A stretch of DNA of 64,000 nt. It comes from Marinobacter daqiaonensis (GTDB taxonomy: Bacteria > Pseudomonadota > Gammaproteobacteria > Pseudomonadales > Oleiphilaceae). The translations under genes were made by a program, and so were the position numbers. Positions 19,909 through 25,270 of the stretch are shown here, one piece after another. The notes beneath the pieces were generated by a model, which was not told where the DNA came from, did no database searches, and saw only the letters and a list, made by a program, of their open reading frames with translations. Position 1 is the first letter of the stretch. The number at the start of each line of letters is the position of its first letter. The stretch covers positions 2,515,272-2,579,271 of the forward strand of contig NZ_FOYW01000001.1 in the NCBI RefSeq assembly GCF_900115285.1. Direction: 5' to 3'.

Positions 19909-20571
19909 ATGAGCACCCGCGTGATCCTGTTCGATGTCATAGAGACGCTGTTTTCCCTGCGACCCCTGAAGGCCCGTCTGGAGGCGGAGGGTCTGCCAGA
20001 AGAGGCGGCTGACCTGTTCTTCGCCCAGATACTGCGGGACGCCTTTGCGCTATCCGCCGCGGGTGTGTTCAGACCCTTCCCGGAAATTGCCGCCGGCACC
20101 CTGCGCGTGCTTCTGGAAAGCCACTGGCAGCCGGTAACCGACGACGTGCTCCGTGACATTCTGGCGGTCTTCGGAAAGCTGCCGGCTCACTCCGACGTGC
20201 GGGGCGCGCTGGAAGCGGCGCGAACGGCCGGCGTGCGCTCTGTGCTTCTGACCAACGGGTCGCGGGCCAATACCGAGAAACTGGTGAGCAATGCCGGGCT
20301 GACGGACCTTGTGGACGATGTCATTTCCATTGAGGACTTCAAGGTCTGGAAACCCAAAGCCGACGTTTATAGGGAGGCGTCCCGGAGATGCGGAGTGGAG
20401 CCGGCAGACGCAACCCTGATCGCGGCTCATGCCTGGGACGTTCACGGAGCTTTGCAGGCGGGGCTTGGCGCCGTATGGGTGAAGCGGCAGGACGCCAGTT
20501 TCCATCCCCTGATGGGGCAGCCCCTGGCACTGGCGGATACGCTGCCTCAAGCCGTGGCGGCCGCCCTGTAA
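19909..20571 (+). CDS. HAD-superfamily hydrolase, haloacid-dehalogenase type II-like
   Basis: 220-aa HAD hydrolase. Motif I FDVIETLF (nucleophile Asp9), motif II LLTNGS, motif III KVWKPKADVY (Lys) and motif IV region AAHAWDVHGA, which matches L-2-haloacid dehalogenases better than phosphatases. Motif I lacks the usual DxDxT acid (Ile-Glu instead), also as in dehalogenases. Substrate unverified. It may equally be a general phosphatase-like enzyme. Same strand as the PEBP gene. Confidence 0.82.
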   Translation: MSTRVILFDVIETLFSLRPLKARLEAEGLPEEAADLFFAQILRDAFALSAAGVFRPFPEIAAGTLRVLLESHWQPVTDDVLRDILAVFGKLPAHSDVRGALEAARTAGVRSVLLTNGSRANTEKLVSNAGLTDLVDDVISIEDFKVWKPKADVYREASRRCGVEPADATLIAAHAWDVHGALQAGLGAVWVKRQDASFHPLMGQPLALADTLPQAVAAAL

Positions 20572-20591
20572 TATTGCTTCGGCCCCCGTGT

Positions 20592-20792
20592 CTTCCGGAG
20601 CTGGAAAAGGCTTCGAGTCCGTTGCGGGACACTATTGGTGGGCAGGTGGTCAGCGTTCATTACGATGCCGGGGTGCCCAATGCCTGGGTGACGGATTCCA
20701 TGGGGGAGGAGTTGGCGGCGACCCGGGCGTTCTGGTTCGCCTGGTATACCTTTTACCCGGAAACAACGATTTTTCAGGTCACTGATGAATAG
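20592..20792 (+). pseudogene. C-terminal remnant, DUF3179-like
   Basis: An open stretch without its own start directly after the HAD gene encodes GQVVSVHYDAGVPNAWV and AFWFAWYTFYPETTIF, resembling the C-terminal end of DUF3179 proteins as I remember them. The rest of the gene is absent; upstream codons in the same frame lie inside the HAD gene. Either a degraded remnant or a family I misremember. Confidence 0.4.
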
Positions 20793-20927: not shown

Positions 20928-21572
20928 TCATCGTTGCCTGAAATTCTCCTGCTCGACTCGCATGTATTCAGTCAGGGCGGCAAGTTCTTCGGAATCCCAT
21001 TCCAATGGCTGGGCTGCCATGGGAGCCACCATACAGACCTGAACCATTTCATCCAGGGTTACCTGGTCCAGTCCGAAGTCGGTCTTTGCCATCTCGACGG
21101 AGTGTGGGTAATCCTTCGAGAAAGTATCGGCGTAACCAGCGCCATTGGCATGACACGTCTGACAGGACAGGCCATTGGTGGAAAGCGAGGTGTCACTGAA
21201 CAGCGCCTTGCCTTTTTCAGCCAGGGCGCGGGCATCGCCTTCATGAGGCTGGTAATCCGAGGGCCGCTGGACAGCGGCTTTCATTTTTTCAGAAATGCCT
21301 TCCCCCTCACCCTCGGCCTCACCTTCACCTTGGGCTTCACCCTCACCTTCACCTTCTCCTTCGGATTTTCCTTCGGCTTCACCTTCAGCTTCGCTGTGGG
21401 CTTCCCCCTCGGCTTCACCCTGACCGGCTTCGGCCGAGGGAATCAGTCCCGGACCATGGTCTGAAACGGCCGTGGCGCCGGCCATTGCTACCACTGTCAT
21501 TACTGGCACCGAGATCATGAAGTTCCGGGACAGTTTTTGCAGAAGTTCCTTTCGATGATTGTCAGTGTTCAT
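20928..21572 (-). CDS. c-type cytochrome with Glu-Gly-rich tract
   Basis: 214 aa in three parts. N-terminal segment (1-40) with basic RKELLQKLSR then hydrophobic PVMTVVAMAGATA; a 43-residue acidic tract (50-92) built of GE, AE and GEGE units; and a mono-haem cytochrome c domain (~105-214) with CQTCH at 137-141 and a candidate axial Met near MVAPM (181-185). The N-terminal segment aligns with that of the 92-aa EG-tail protein at 22406 (shared LL-KL-R and PV-VV pattern). GGAGAG precedes ATG. Exported electron carrier; the EG tract is a candidate substrate for the TTL-like ligase upstream. The cytochrome call is sure, the modification is inference. Confidence 0.82.
   Translation of the reverse strand: MNTDNHRKELLQKLSRNFMISVPVMTVVAMAGATAVSDHGPGLIPSAEAGQGEAEGEAHSEAEGEAEGKSEGEGEGEGEAQGEGEAEGEGEGISEKMKAAVQRPSDYQPHEGDARALAEKGKALFSDTSLSTNGLSCQTCHANGAGYADTFSKDYPHSVEMAKTDFGLDQVTLDEMVQVCMVAPMAAQPLEWDSEELAALTEYMRVEQENFRQR
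21297..21425 (-). repeat. coding hexamer-type repeat (EG tract of cytochrome)
   Basis: Degenerate tandem repeat of GA(A/G)GG(C/T)-type hexamers on the minus strand, read as Glu-Gly/Glu-Ala. In frame, so gain or loss of units would change tract length without frameshift. Confidence 0.75.
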
Positions 21573-21695: not shown

Positions 21696-22259
21696 TCACG
21701 CACTCCTGGCCATCTGCATTTGCAACTGCTTCTGGTGCCGCAATGTGGACGGATGGACCCCGAACCCCTCCACGACCTCGACTTCACCCTGTTCGGCCAG
21801 CATTGCGATAATCGCCATGTGGTGAATGGTATGGCTGGTGAGAAATACGAGTTCCCGCTCAGCGGTCGTGGAGACCGGAACCCGCTGATCGCCGCTCACA
21901 TGTTCCATCCACAAGGGCGCGTTCCGGGGCGAAAGGGAAAGCCTGTCTAAAAAACGGGCAATCGCGAGGAGTCGGTTTCGGGCGGCGTGAATGTCCAGCT
22001 CAAGGCTTTCCTCACGCTGCCGGCTTTCATAATCCAGCGGCTTTGACGGATCTCCGCTGACAGCCTTCTGGAACGAGACGTAGTGGTCGATGATATGGCG
22101 CACGTGCTTGCCGATAACATGCTTTCCCCTGGCCCCGAAGGTTTGTCGGTACAGCTTCCCGGGCAATACGACGAGCAGATCCACAAGCTGTTGGATTGCG
22201 TGAAGGTTTTCGGCGACAAGGCCTTCACAACTAACTGGGTCGGAGCTTGATTTTGACAT
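21696..22259 (-). CDS. DinB-family (four-helix, metal-binding) protein
   Basis: 187-aa DinB/YfiT-like helical bundle. Metal-ligand His candidates lie in GKHVRHIIDHYVSF (~residues 55-68) and FLTSHTIHHMAII (~140-152), the two positions used by DinB-type thiol transferases. Start 22259 (MSKSSSD) is preferred over an upstream ATG that would give an unrelated basic extension. It sits between the EG-tail protein and the EG-tract cytochrome on the same strand, so it may belong to the same operon. Role there is unknown. Confidence 0.75.
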   Translation of the reverse strand: MSKSSSDPVSCEGLVAENLHAIQQLVDLLVVLPGKLYRQTFGARGKHVIGKHVRHIIDHYVSFQKAVSGDPSKPLDYESRQREESLELDIHAARNRLLAIARFLDRLSLSPRNAPLWMEHVSGDQRVPVSTTAERELVFLTSHTIHHMAIIAMLAEQGEVEVVEGFGVHPSTLRHQKQLQMQMARSA

Positions 22260-22405
22260 TTTTATCACCCGTGCTGACTGGGTAGATTCAGTACCTGAAA
22301 GCCGTAAATCAGGATGGCAGGCAGGCCCGGCGCGGGGGAGGGAAATCATGAATCAGATCCAACCCTGCCCCGGCCGCTGCCTTTGTAAGGAGCCAGGATT
22401 CAGGC

Positions 22406-22684
22406 TTAGCCTTCGGCTTCACCCTCACCCTCACCCTCACCTTCGCCCTCACCTTCGCCTTCGCCTTCACCTTCACCTTCGGCTTTACCCTTGGCTTCCC
22501 CCTCTGCCTCGCCATAAGCGAGCATCAGGTGGTCACGCTCCGCACTGTTTTCCACACTGACATCCGCAGTGGCGGCACCACTGAATGCGGAGGCGCCCAC
22601 AACAACAGCGAGTACTGGTCCGGTGTAGGTGATTCCTCTGGCAAGCTTTCGTAACAACTGTCTTTTCTGGGTATGTCTGGACAT
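22406..22684 (-). CDS. 92-aa protein with C-terminal Glu-Gly tail; candidate modification substrate
   Basis: Residues 1-18 are basic (KRQLLRKLAR), 19-40 hydrophobic (YTGPVLAVVVGASAFSGA), 41-57 a linker (NSAERDHLMLAY), and 58-92 an almost pure Glu-Gly tail ending EAEG. This layout resembles a leader plus modifiable core. The tail resembles the C-terminal tail of alpha-tubulin, the substrate of TTL and TTLL ligases, and the gene directly follows an 808-aa TTL-like ligase with a PqqD-like (leader-binding type) region. AGAGGAAATATC precedes ATG. The hydrophobic stretch may be a membrane anchor or export signal. No homologue recognised; function is inference. Confidence 0.68.
   Translation of the reverse strand: MSRHTQKRQLLRKLARGITYTGPVLAVVVGASAFSGAATADVSVENSAERDHLMLAYGEAEGEAKGKAEGEGEGEGEGEGEGEGEGEGEAEG
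22409..22513 (-). repeat. coding hexamer microsatellite (EG tail)
   Basis: Near-perfect tandem hexamers read GAG/GAA GGT/GGC on the minus strand (CTCACC units on plus), encoding the (EG)n tail. Repeat length can change in whole Glu-Gly units by slippage. Confidence 0.82.
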
Positions 22685-22843
22685 GATATTTCCTCTCTTG
22701 CCCGTTGCTTTGGTTAACGCCGGGCATGTGTGCCCGGGTCTTCAGCCGGGAGGTAAAAGCCGTTAACGGCACCCCATTACCACCCGGGGTTGCTGGCGAT
22801 GACCTGACGGCGGAGGCCAGCAAACACCCTCAATGTCTGTCAC

Positions 22844-25270
22844 TCAGCTGGCGTTCATGCCGCTGGTGTACCGCAGCGTCTCCCCTGGCTGTAGCTGAGG
22901 GATTACGGCGTCGAGGCTGCCGGCAACAACAAGGAAGCGGTTCGCACCTTCCAGCCATTCAGACAACCTTGAAAATCCGGAGGTATCCAGGGGCCTGCCC
23001 CCGGAGCCACAACAGGCGGAAATAAGATGCTTCAGGGTTTCGGTAACCGAGATCGCCCGGATACCGTCCTCTTCCTCCGGAAGTGTCTCCACCGGTATCA
23101 ATACCGTATTGATGTGGCAGTGCAGTCCCGCCACGCCAGCCGAGGCCGGTCGCAGCATGACCTCGCGATCGTTTGCCAGGGAATGCGTTGAAAAACGTTC
23201 TGACGACGTGGGATCGACGGTCCCTGTACCGGGCACCTGCGCTGGCAGGCCAAGGGCAAACATGGATGTGCCAGCATTGCCCGGAATCCGGAGGGCCCGG
23301 CCAAAGCTTGCTCCCAGCCGGCTGGCGAGCTCCAGCGCGGGCAGATCGCCGAGCCCGGAAGGACTGCTGGCAACCAGCACGGCGCTTCCCGGCTCATCTG
23401 CGGAGCAGACAAGGCCCGCGTCGACAATGATATCGCCTGGACCCGCCGAATGGTGGGTCAGGCAGGCCATTACAGCCAGTGCGACATGTGCGAGTCCCAG
23501 GCGCTCCCTGATCACCTTGCCGTCCAGAACCAGGGTGTACCCAGGGGTGCCACGCACGATTTCAAGCCGTGAGTGCTCCTTCTGGCGGGCAGTCGATGCA
23601 AGGGGGAGAAGCAGCGGGCCGATGCGACTGATCACGGTGGGGCTGTCGGTCAGGCACTCCACCTGGAAGCCCCCGCATCCGACCAGGCACGAGAAGGGCT
23701 CGGAAATCGGCGGGGGCTGGTGGTCCTCAGGCCTCGGCTTAATGGAGGTAACGCCCGGCGTGCCTGTCTGCACCAGGAGGCGGTTGTTGGTCCAGTTCGC
23801 CAGGGAGTTCCAGACATCCTGGCGAACTGCCCAGGCATCCGGTTCGTTGGCGGCGCCCTGCCGGGCGGACTGGAGCAGGGCATCGGCTATGTCATCCGGT
23901 GCGATTCCATCCGTGGCCATGAGCCAGATCAGCGAAGCGGTTTCATTCAGTTCGCTGAGGTGCCCCCGGCGGGTATCGTAAACGTACACCCGGTCCTCAC
24001 TGATCATATCCTCGGCGCAACGGCGCTGCAGGGTGGGTTGGGTTAATTCCCCACTGGCCAGGGCCCTTGAGACGATCCAGTCCTCGAGGCGGGGCAGGGT
24101 GTAAAATGGCAGATAGGCGGCCGGGTCTTCGGAGGGAAGCAGGCGCTTGAAGTTACCGGCCCGGGCCAGTTCCTGTTCGGTTTCCGCAAGCAGCTGCTCT
24201 TCCGGGGAAACACCCCCGTCAATCCCGGTTTGGTCGTTCAGCCCCACGAGATTGACCAGGTCCGCCACCATCGTGCCCTTGACGCCTTCTTCGATTGCTC
24301 CACCGCTCTCCGGCCCGGCACACACTTCCAGGGAAGGGCTGAGATTGCATTCCAGTACCCATGGCTTGAGTGTCTCGTCGATCAGGCAGTCGATGCCCAG
24401 CAGCTCGTAACATCCCCGGGTATCCGCACCGATCGTCCGGGACCGTTCACGCATGGACTCCAGTGCGGAAAGGCAAGTCAGGGCGACCATGTCCTCGACC
24501 CGGGCGAAGAGGATGGCATCGTCATGCCCCTGCTCCCGAAGCCAGGCCCGGTACCGCTCCAGGTCGACGAATTCGACCGGCACTTCGGCGTCCAGGTTCA
24601 GCGCATTCACGTCGGGATTGGTGAGGTAGCTGTAGGGGTTGTCCGCGTTTTCCGCGTCGTAGGGAGCCGAGGCGAGCTTGGCGAAGCCCTGACGGTACAG
24701 ATAGACCCGCAGGGGAGTCACGGATGATATGGCGACGTAAAGCCGCAGAACGTATTTGCGCCCATGCATGGTGTGGGGATTTTCAATGTACTCCTGCACC
24801 ATCCAGGAGGATTCCATGGGAACCCTGGCAGGATCCTTGACCAGCTGTATGCCCTTGCCCCGGGCTGCGTTCTTGGGCTTGAGTATCCAGCGCCGGGAGG
24901 GATTATCGAAGGCCGCCTGCTGGAAGGCGTGGTAGTCATCGGGCATGCTGTAAACCCGGGGAAAGAACTGCAGTCTGTCAGACAGTGCGGAGGCGCCGTT
25001 CTCCTGGACCGTCACCCGCTCCCGGAGAATTGCCAGGCTCTGGTAGAGCCGGCTTTTGACGGTCAGGGCATTGTTACCCGGGATGTGATTGATTTTCCTT
25101 CCGGGTCCCAGGTTCTGGAAAAAACCGGGGTCGGGCATGCCGGTGTACCAGCAGGCGTCCCATTCTTCCGCGCTGTCCGCTGCCTGCCAGTCAGTCTTAC
25201 TGAGAGAAGTTTCAAAAAAACGGTCCTGCTCGTAACTGCGGTTGCCACCCATCCAGTAGTGTCGCGTCAT
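22844..25270 (-). CDS. TTL-like ATP-grasp ligase fused to PqqD-like and HprK-like regions
   Basis: 808 aa, three regions. (1) Residues ~100-345: tubulin-tyrosine-ligase-family ATP-grasp with WILKPKNAARGKGIQLV, MVQEYIENPHTMHGRKYVLR, YSYLTNPDVN (cf. the TTLL HLTNxxxN motif) and ELLGIDCLIDETLKPWVLECN (metal-binding E and N). (2) ~415-500: PqqD-like, with YVYDTRRGHLSELNETASLIW. (3) ~525-800: resembles HprK-related domains beside PqqD proteins in RiPP loci, but its P-loop position reads SSPSGLGDLPA without GKS/T, so likely no kinase. Predicted to ligate amino acids to Glu side chains or C-termini of peptides held by the PqqD part. First gene of the minus-strand set including the EG-tail protein. 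Region 1 is firm, 2 probable, 3 tentative. Confidence 0.78.
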   Translation of the reverse strand: MTRHYWMGGNRSYEQDRFFETSLSKTDWQAADSAEEWDACWYTGMPDPGFFQNLGPGRKINHIPGNNALTVKSRLYQSLAILRERVTVQENGASALSDRLQFFPRVYSMPDDYHAFQQAAFDNPSRRWILKPKNAARGKGIQLVKDPARVPMESSWMVQEYIENPHTMHGRKYVLRLYVAISSVTPLRVYLYRQGFAKLASAPYDAENADNPYSYLTNPDVNALNLDAEVPVEFVDLERYRAWLREQGHDDAILFARVEDMVALTCLSALESMRERSRTIGADTRGCYELLGIDCLIDETLKPWVLECNLSPSLEVCAGPESGGAIEEGVKGTMVADLVNLVGLNDQTGIDGGVSPEEQLLAETEQELARAGNFKRLLPSEDPAAYLPFYTLPRLEDWIVSRALASGELTQPTLQRRCAEDMISEDRVYVYDTRRGHLSELNETASLIWLMATDGIAPDDIADALLQSARQGAANEPDAWAVRQDVWNSLANWTNNRLLVQTGTPGVTSIKPRPEDHQPPPISEPFSCLVGCGGFQVECLTDSPTVISRIGPLLLPLASTARQKEHSRLEIVRGTPGYTLVLDGKVIRERLGLAHVALAVMACLTHHSAGPGDIIVDAGLVCSADEPGSAVLVASSPSGLGDLPALELASRLGASFGRALRIPGNAGTSMFALGLPAQVPGTGTVDPTSSERFSTHSLANDREVMLRPASAGVAGLHCHINTVLIPVETLPEEEDGIRAISVTETLKHLISACCGSGGRPLDTSGFSRLSEWLEGANRFLVVAGSLDAVIPQLQPGETLRYTSGMNAS

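Follow-up and report, generated by a model that had tools for sequence, protein, structure and literature searches.

A TTL-type ligase fused to a RiPP recognition element, with predicted leader-tagged Glu-Gly substrates, in Marinobacter daqiaonensis

Tail modification by ligases of the tubulin tyrosine ligase (TTL) type is, to our knowledge, known only from eukaryotes, where its targets are tubulin and a number of further acidic proteins. A 64,000-nucleotide stretch of the Marinobacter daqiaonensis genome (contig NZ_FOYW01000001.1, positions 2,515,272 to 2,579,271; here "the window", in whose coordinates all positions are given) encodes an 808-amino-acid fusion of a TTL-type ligase domain, a recognition element of ribosomally synthesized and post-translationally modified peptides (RiPP recognition element [RRE]) and a domain of the PEPCK/HprK fold. 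Beside it lie a 92-amino-acid protein with a Glu-Gly tail and a cytochrome c with a similar repeat. Together, the fusion and these proteins probably constitute a leader-directed protein-tail modification system. What the analysis showed directly is the identity of the domains, conserved residues at the catalytic positions, a leader common to the substrates, and the inheritance of enzyme and tagged substrates together almost one to one, unlinked substrates included.

The closest functional parallel, by analogy, is human TTLL5 in photoreceptors, which glutamylates the Glu-Gly repeats of RPGR-ORF15 while docking elsewhere on the protein, through the RPGR basic domain and the TTLL5 CID (PMC13052805). 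Both systems combine a TTL-family ligase, a Glu-Gly repeat substrate and a separate docking element; the system in the window differs in being bacterial, in its predicted docking through an RRE and an N-terminal leader, in its apparently exported substrates and in its chemistry, which is predicted. The tubulin polyglutamylases TTLL6 and TTLL7 are the closest solved relatives by sequence and share the catalytic positions, whereas the window enzyme has Arg/Lys and Leu at the positions of TTLL6 Q180 and H362, Val in place of the Asp of the KFDLR motif, and a fused RRE and PEPCK-fold domain. RiPP systems with an RRE have in common with this locus the RRE itself, a dedicated precursor whose conserved leader carries the RRE motif, and a variable core. 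Among them, the lasso-peptide B1 proteins TbiB1 and TfuB1, and LppB of linear polyphosphorylated peptides, share the RRE fold and the YxxPx[L/V/I/F/A] leader motif (PMC13381572); in the window the RRE is instead fused to a TTL ligase, the leader apparently doubles as a signal peptide and a full-size cytochrome is tagged. Neither a lasso cyclase nor a B2 protease was noticed near the window locus, in surveys not aimed at them. Bacterial protein glutamylation has precedents in RimK, which poly-glutamylates a ribosomal protein, and in Legionella SidJ. These are different enzyme types, and we know of no RRE, Glu-Gly tail or dedicated leader-tagged substrate for either.

All four genes of the locus lie on the minus strand, in the order fusion (25270-22844), 92-residue protein (22684-22406), DinB-like gene (22349-21696) and cytochrome c (21572-20928). 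An earlier note, made from the DNA alone, had proposed the first two as a peptide ligase and its substrate, and placed them correctly (22844-25270 for 808 residues and 22406-22684 for 92). The cytochrome c of 214 residues (20928-21572), with its second Glu-[Gly/Ala] region and related N terminus, is an addition to that pair, as is the DinB-like gene in between.

The TTL/TTLL-type ATP-grasp ligase domain occupies residues 58-315 of the fusion (24326-25099) and matches PF03133 with an E value of 4.1e-55 (187.5 bits; model positions 9-262 of 292). The best sequence matches in the PDB are TTLL6 (8.1e-33) and TTLL7 (2.5e-31), in keeping with the TTL-type identity first read from short motifs. With a profile of 10 members these rise to 1.7e-42 and 2.7e-42, respectively, with 5vlq (1.6e-15), which we take to be the glycylase TTLL3, and TTL (2e-14) far behind. 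Residues K131, K172, R176, D294, E307 and N309 are invariant in 13/13 homologues and align with catalytic positions of TTLL6 and TTLL7; presumably, K131 is the ATP-grasp lysine, K172 and R176 form the KxxxR pair, and D294, E307 and N309 bind Mg. The residues at the ATP-grasp catalytic positions, on whose presence in a proper alignment the earlier proposal hung, are kept in every homologue compared; Val174 stands in for one residue of a TTLL motif. Among the 13 homologues, 166 of the 345 columns of residues 1-345 are invariant, against 12 of the 289 columns that make up the C-terminal domain.

Q180 and H362 of TTLL6 decide elongation over initiation, and Arg and Ile at these places shift the enzyme towards gamma-linked glutamylation (PMC7970040). 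They align with R137 and L310 of the fusion; in the alignment, the engineered TTLL6 chain shows Arg and Ile at the two positions. Across 79 fusion open reading frames (ORFs), taken from overlapping loci, the position of R137 is Arg or Lys and that of L310 is always Leu. As an analogy of two residues, the Arg137/Leu310 signature points to gamma-linked initiation on internal glutamates.

Near-full TTL matches were few in a sample of the phylum. PF03133 is matched at an E value of ≤0.001 in 48 of 398 genomes sampled, and matches running from near the model start to about position 265 of 292 were found in three, two in Marinobacter and one Halomonas-like; the match in genome G772 covers model positions 61-282 (E=8.5e-13). 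The remaining matches, of about 100 positions or fewer, were taken as other ATP-grasp proteins and not counted as TTLs. NCBIfam held no useful family for the fusion. A stand-alone TTL protein that lacks an RRE (L044:7759-8862; PF03133, 6.5e-44) was also observed. It lies beside a probably exported 248-residue protein (L044:9058-9804) whose stretch WTRPLVESVVLPAHAQTS is leader-like and agrees with [Y/W]xxPx[V] as well.

The RRE of the lasso-B1/PqqD type spans residues 413-502 (23765-24034). Its model, with predicted local distance difference test (pLDDT) values mostly of 70-90, superposes on TbiB1, a lasso-peptide B1 protein whose structure was solved with its leader, with a Z score of 11.3 and a root mean square deviation of 1.8 over 84 of 84 residues. 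The sole PDB matches under E=1 to a profile of these residues are TfuB1 (8e-4) and TbiB1 (1.2e-3). The PqqD Pfam model scores 20.8 bits with the whole protein, below its cut-off of 23.4, and 25.2 bits, above it, with the isolated domain; as an isolated domain, all 10 aligned family members match at E≤0.01. The "PqqD-like middle" of the earlier note is thus retained and refined to the lasso B1 type.

The C-terminal part, residues 520-808 (22847-23713), is poorly conserved and has the PEPCK fold (Z score of 14.0 and root mean square deviation of 4.7 over 268 residues against Escherichia coli PEPCK). HprK shares this fold, and the HprK-like C terminus suggested earlier stands as a fold assignment. 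It does not stand as a standard kinase, because the Walker A motif GxxxxGK[ST], a mark of the HprK kinase/phosphorylase, occurs in 0/13 homologues. We treat the domain as a predicted structural or regulatory part. Foldseek searches with the fusion model returned TTLL6 chains at E=1.9e-4 and worse, and the structure-comparison rows were mainly PEPCK. The fusion frame is split just before the C-terminal domain in L012/L065 and L064, giving two overlapping frames that reflect either a natural split or a frameshift.

Lasso RREs recognize [Y/W]xxPx[L/V/I/F/A] in leaders (PMC13381572), and hydrophobic variants of the RRE-bound motif, such as LxxP, occur (PMC12710340). The 92-residue protein (22406-22684) carries YTGPVL, a YxxPx[L] motif, at residues 20-25 (22610-22627), within a leader of residues 1-40 (22565-22684). 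To avoid circularity, leader statistics were drawn from 79 fusion-bearing stretches, some of them sharing a genome, in which distinct closed ORFs were picked by the acidic repeat and nothing else. A leader-like element, heptad-like Leu followed by Pro, was found by pattern in 91 of 92 such ORFs and by eye in the last (L156). At the Tyr place, the 62 short ORFs have Y in 55, H in 3, T in 2, D in 1 and K in 1, the T and K rows being possibly misanchored. A second, leader-pattern set comprised 114 distinct closed ORFs (81 short and 33 cytochromes) collected with a pattern that admitted only Y, H, V, I or A where the Tyr stands; its 81 short ORFs have 77 Y and 4 H, a pattern-limited count that was not used for leader statistics. 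Likewise, the invariance of L10, L14 and P23 in the leader alignment is partly imposed by the collecting pattern and is not used as evidence. A "short" group holding cytochromes cut by locus ends was left out of the counts.

By sequence, the leaders of the short peptides and the cytochromes are visibly related, and in the genome of the window the leader profile retrieves both the 92-residue protein (E=2.7e-19) and the cytochrome (E=1.3e-16). By eye, the leaders resemble Sec signal peptides with AxA-like sites, and that of the 92-residue protein is predicted probably to double as a signal peptide. A Glu-rich leader ORF lies inside the fetched stretch in 39 of 41 fusion loci (rows read by eye; L148, which is not a fusion, is left out); the 40th (L175) is completed in L190, and for the last (L177) the substrates are elsewhere in the genome. 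A further type of leader-tagged Glu-rich peptide, with a YAVPVL/YTVPVI leader and the sequence GYYMMAEAEGEAEG..., is found in L193 (from about 5402) and L194-L199, from some Halomonas-like genomes.

The 35-residue tail of the 92-residue protein (22409-22513), the probable modification site, consists of 15 Glu, 14 Gly, 4 Ala and 2 Lys, which bears out its description as nearly pure Glu-Gly. A DNA-level hexamer repeat was considered as its source and ruled out, because synonymous codons are mixed. Over the 81 short substrates, the acidic stretch holds 40% Glu, 25% Gly and 25% Ala, and successive Glu residues lie exactly two residues apart in 82% of cases (75.5% in the 33 cytochromes). Adjacent Glu makes up 2% in the short tails, and this strict Glu-x-Glu alternation is a further difference from RPGR. 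Some Halomonas-like peptides carry Glu-Ala-Ser-Pro variants (L169 and L170). In the cytochrome of the window, the Glu-[Gly/Ala] region covers residues 51-92 (21297-21422) and is thus internal, between the related leader and a cytochrome c domain of the SoxA/TsdA type (PF21342, 1.9e-7).

The distribution of the fusion follows that of the tagged substrates, in agreement with the co-occurrence that the earlier note had proposed to look for. In Marinobacter, the fusion is matched in 24 of 100 genomes, in two as fragments only (G372 and G430). The cytochrome search matched 47 of the 100: 22 with leader and Glu-Gly region (one, G428, cut by a contig end), 22 matching only from about residue 100, and 3 decayed. 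The 22 genomes of the first group are exactly the 22 with a non-fragmentary fusion, two of which (G459 and G463) have it split into two frames, and no intact leader plus Glu-Gly cytochrome was found in the other 78. Decayed copies occur in G372, G394 and G430, where the fusion is decayed or missing. In fusion-less Marinobacter, Cys-rich NPC[A/S/T]K repeats replace the leader and Glu-Gly region in 8/8 cytochromes read from the 22 genomes with a match only from about residue 100. The loci of these NPC[A/S/T]KNPC-repeat cytochromes are L072-L079; in L076 the gene lies beside a DUF3179 gene (Pfam) and an ECF sigma factor gene (by eye), and L079 is alike by eye.

In the Halomonas-like family, the fusion was found in 79 of 275 genomes, the leader profile in 83 and both in 78, so that the leader is present in 78/79 fusion genomes versus 5/196 others (Fisher p=2.5e-61, uncorrected for relatedness). 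All three genomes of a third family carry the fusion and leader substrates. Eight of 369 genomes in a class-wide sample match the fusion query: G000, G155 and G266 through the RRE into the C-terminal part, G362 to residue 470, G194 as TTL alone, and three as weak partial matches. The leader profile is present in the four with TTL and RRE (G000, G155, G266 and G362) versus one marginal match in the other 365. The association holds without linkage: G874, G885 and G917 have the short peptide together with the fusion even though it lies >1 megabase away or on a different contig. The pattern looks like that of an enzyme-substrate set rather than a neighborhood accident.

Several observations weigh against a leader-directed system or complicate it. 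The Asp of the TTLL6/7 KFDLR motif is Val174 in 13/13 homologues, and KYVLR is found in 78 of the 79 fusion ORFs grouped (overlapping loci; the remaining ORF gave no pattern match). Structure prediction, a check suggested in the earlier note, modeled the RRE and PEPCK-fold parts, both of which found structural matches, but left the TTL part mostly at pLDDT <60 in two AlphaFold2 runs, too low for a model of the active site. At the Tyr place, the 29 cytochromes picked by acidic repeat have V in 16, Y in 9 and I in 4, thus non-Tyr in 20/29; Marinobacter cytochromes carry Val or Ile instead of Tyr, and in the leader-pattern set 23/33 cytochromes are non-Tyr. The genome of the window also has a plain Glu-Gly linker in an unrelated 560-residue protein lacking the leader (L084:1270-2952), by eye a lipoyl-domain acyltransferase, whose linker is encoded by a pure in-frame GAGGGC repeat; a Glu-Gly run alone is therefore no sign of the system. 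The Glu-Gly codon pattern occurs at two other loci of the genome (C6:29273 and C8:1943895), both pure GAGGGC repeats: the one in L084 is this linker, and for the one in L081 the more plausible gene reads on the opposite strand. Co-inheritance has exceptions. G889, a 100% complete genome, has an intact leader-tagged Glu-rich cytochrome and no detected fusion; the leader alone was matched in G929, G940 and G1101 (74-86% complete) and, weakly, in G1084 (E=2.3e-4); and G843 has a fusion fragment with no leader match. The association statistics, moreover, ignore phylogeny.

Some of these observations would suit a fusion that acts on an unseen substrate, the Glu-Gly proteins merely sharing its operon and signal peptide. 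Operons can hold unrelated genes, Glu-Gly can be a plain linker, as in L084, and G889 keeps a tagged cytochrome without the fusion. This explanation is nevertheless quite improbable given that tagged substrates co-occur with the fusion even when unlinked, that Cys-rich repeats take the place of leader and Glu-Gly in the fusion-less Marinobacter cytochromes read, and that the leader profile is so rare in fusion-less genomes (5/196 and 1/365). The TTL domain could instead act on the backbone C terminus, in a tyrosination-like or PEARL-like manner, with the Glu-Gly repeat serving only as an anionic brush or a flexible spacer. Addition of Tyr at a C terminus is the reaction of TTL itself, and 3 of the 81 short substrates end in GY, a little like the tyrosinated tubulin tail. 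Set against this, the closest relatives are the glutamylases TTLL6/7 and not TTL, the C termini of the short substrates vary (EG, AG, AS, KG, EA, SA, GY, GT and others; n=81), and the cytochromes, whose Glu-rich region is internal and which end in their cytochrome domain, are nevertheless leader-tagged and co-occur. C-terminal addition thus appears unlikely.

Graspetide ATP-grasp ligases make intramolecular ester or amide cross-links, and the locus, with an ATP-grasp ligase, a leader and a Glu-rich core, resembles such microviridin-like systems; many tails also hold Lys (3.5% of short-tail residues). However, 14 of the 81 short substrates lack Lys, Ser, Thr and Tyr, the partners for Glu/Asp links in graspetides, in their last 40 residues, and the ligase matches PF03133 whereas graspetide enzymes are RimK-like. 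The varied C termini and these 14 substrates argue against C-terminal addition and cross-linking as a general rule, and we regard cross-linking as very improbable. The remaining candidate, a LysW-like amino-group carrier on whose Glu a small molecule would be loaded for further biosynthesis, draws on LysX-type ATP-grasp enzymes, which load an acidic carrier. It is the most doubtful of the four: the substrates appear to be exported, one is a c-type cytochrome, and no recurrent neighbor resembles an amino-acid pathway enzyme within 10 kb in 14 loci, read by eye and not family by family.

Leader-directed tail modification accommodates this evidence best at the level of mechanism, where we infer leader binding, ligation, the donor and export. 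The lasso-B1-type RRE of the fusion very likely binds the leaders of its substrates through their hydrophobic YxxPx[L]-like motif; these substrates would be the short peptide, the cytochrome c and sometimes a further peptide. Tethered in this way, the Glu-[Gly/Ala] repeat would come within reach of the TTL domain, which may work along it, using ATP to activate glutamate side-chain carboxyls and ligating free amino acids to them. Gamma-linked branches would be begun on internal glutamates. The favored donor, predicted from sequence, is glutamate, because the nearest relatives are glutamylases; glycine is possible. The leader would also serve as a Sec-type signal peptide, so that the modified protein would be exported and its leader cut by signal peptidase. 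Because a c-type cytochrome has to be exported before heme can be attached, modification would precede translocation. The periplasm would thereby gain a peptide of dense negative charge and a cytochrome whose N-terminal arm is anionic.

The gene between the two predicted substrates encodes a DinB-superfamily protein (21696-22349; minus strand) whose true start is possibly further in. It is a conserved neighbor, with a related ORF in 13 of the 14 loci compared, window included (PF12867, 2e-5 for the window copy). In G372 (L066), the DinB-like frame continues into the last part of the decayed cytochrome copy. Other recurrent neighbors within 10 kb, in 8-11 of the 14 loci (mostly of one genus), are a flavoprotein reductase, an ECF sigma factor with its partner, a GGDEF/EAL protein and DUF3179 (by eye). 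In the window, what is by eye the C-terminal remnant of a DUF3179-like gene adjoins the Glu-Gly cytochrome gene at 20388-20792 on the plus strand, and resembles the intact DUF3179 genes in L076 and L002. A DoxX-family gene lies between the fusion and the Glu-rich peptide in L041 (5183-5602; Pfam) and in L013 (12377-12811; by eye).

Among the open-access papers listed (for one query, 15 of 674 matches), none connected TTL enzymes to RREs, to leader peptides or to Glu-Gly tails in bacteria, in line with the lack of a described counterpart stated in the earlier note; a prior prediction may exist in an amidoligase survey. As far as seen, the modules are of known kinds, and what is new is their union together with a dedicated family of leader-tagged substrates. 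We file the system as leader-guided (RiPP-type) modification by a TTL-type ligase, outside any described class.

A bacterial form with its own substrates, built-in targeting and a portable leader would provide a simple, soluble two-component model for how TTL enzymes choose internal glutamates, and would let RRE-guided chemistry reach whole proteins, cytochromes among them, as well as long acidic tails. It also bears on whether TTL ligases passed from bacteria to eukaryotes or in the opposite direction. Speculatively, in these halophilic or marine organisms the swap between Glu-Gly and Cys-rich repeats on a related cytochrome may point to a role at the cell envelope, in electron transfer or the handling of metals. 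A broader proposal, to which we give about an even chance, is that of a self-contained prokaryotic "tail code," in which a leader-addressed TTL-type ligase would build branched (poly)glutamate on the alternating Glu-Gly/Ala tails of exported peptides and cytochrome c, widespread in two marine/halophilic families. If true, leader-guided peptide modification would gain a new class, and the polyglutamylation of tubulin and RPGR would have a counterpart in bacteria.

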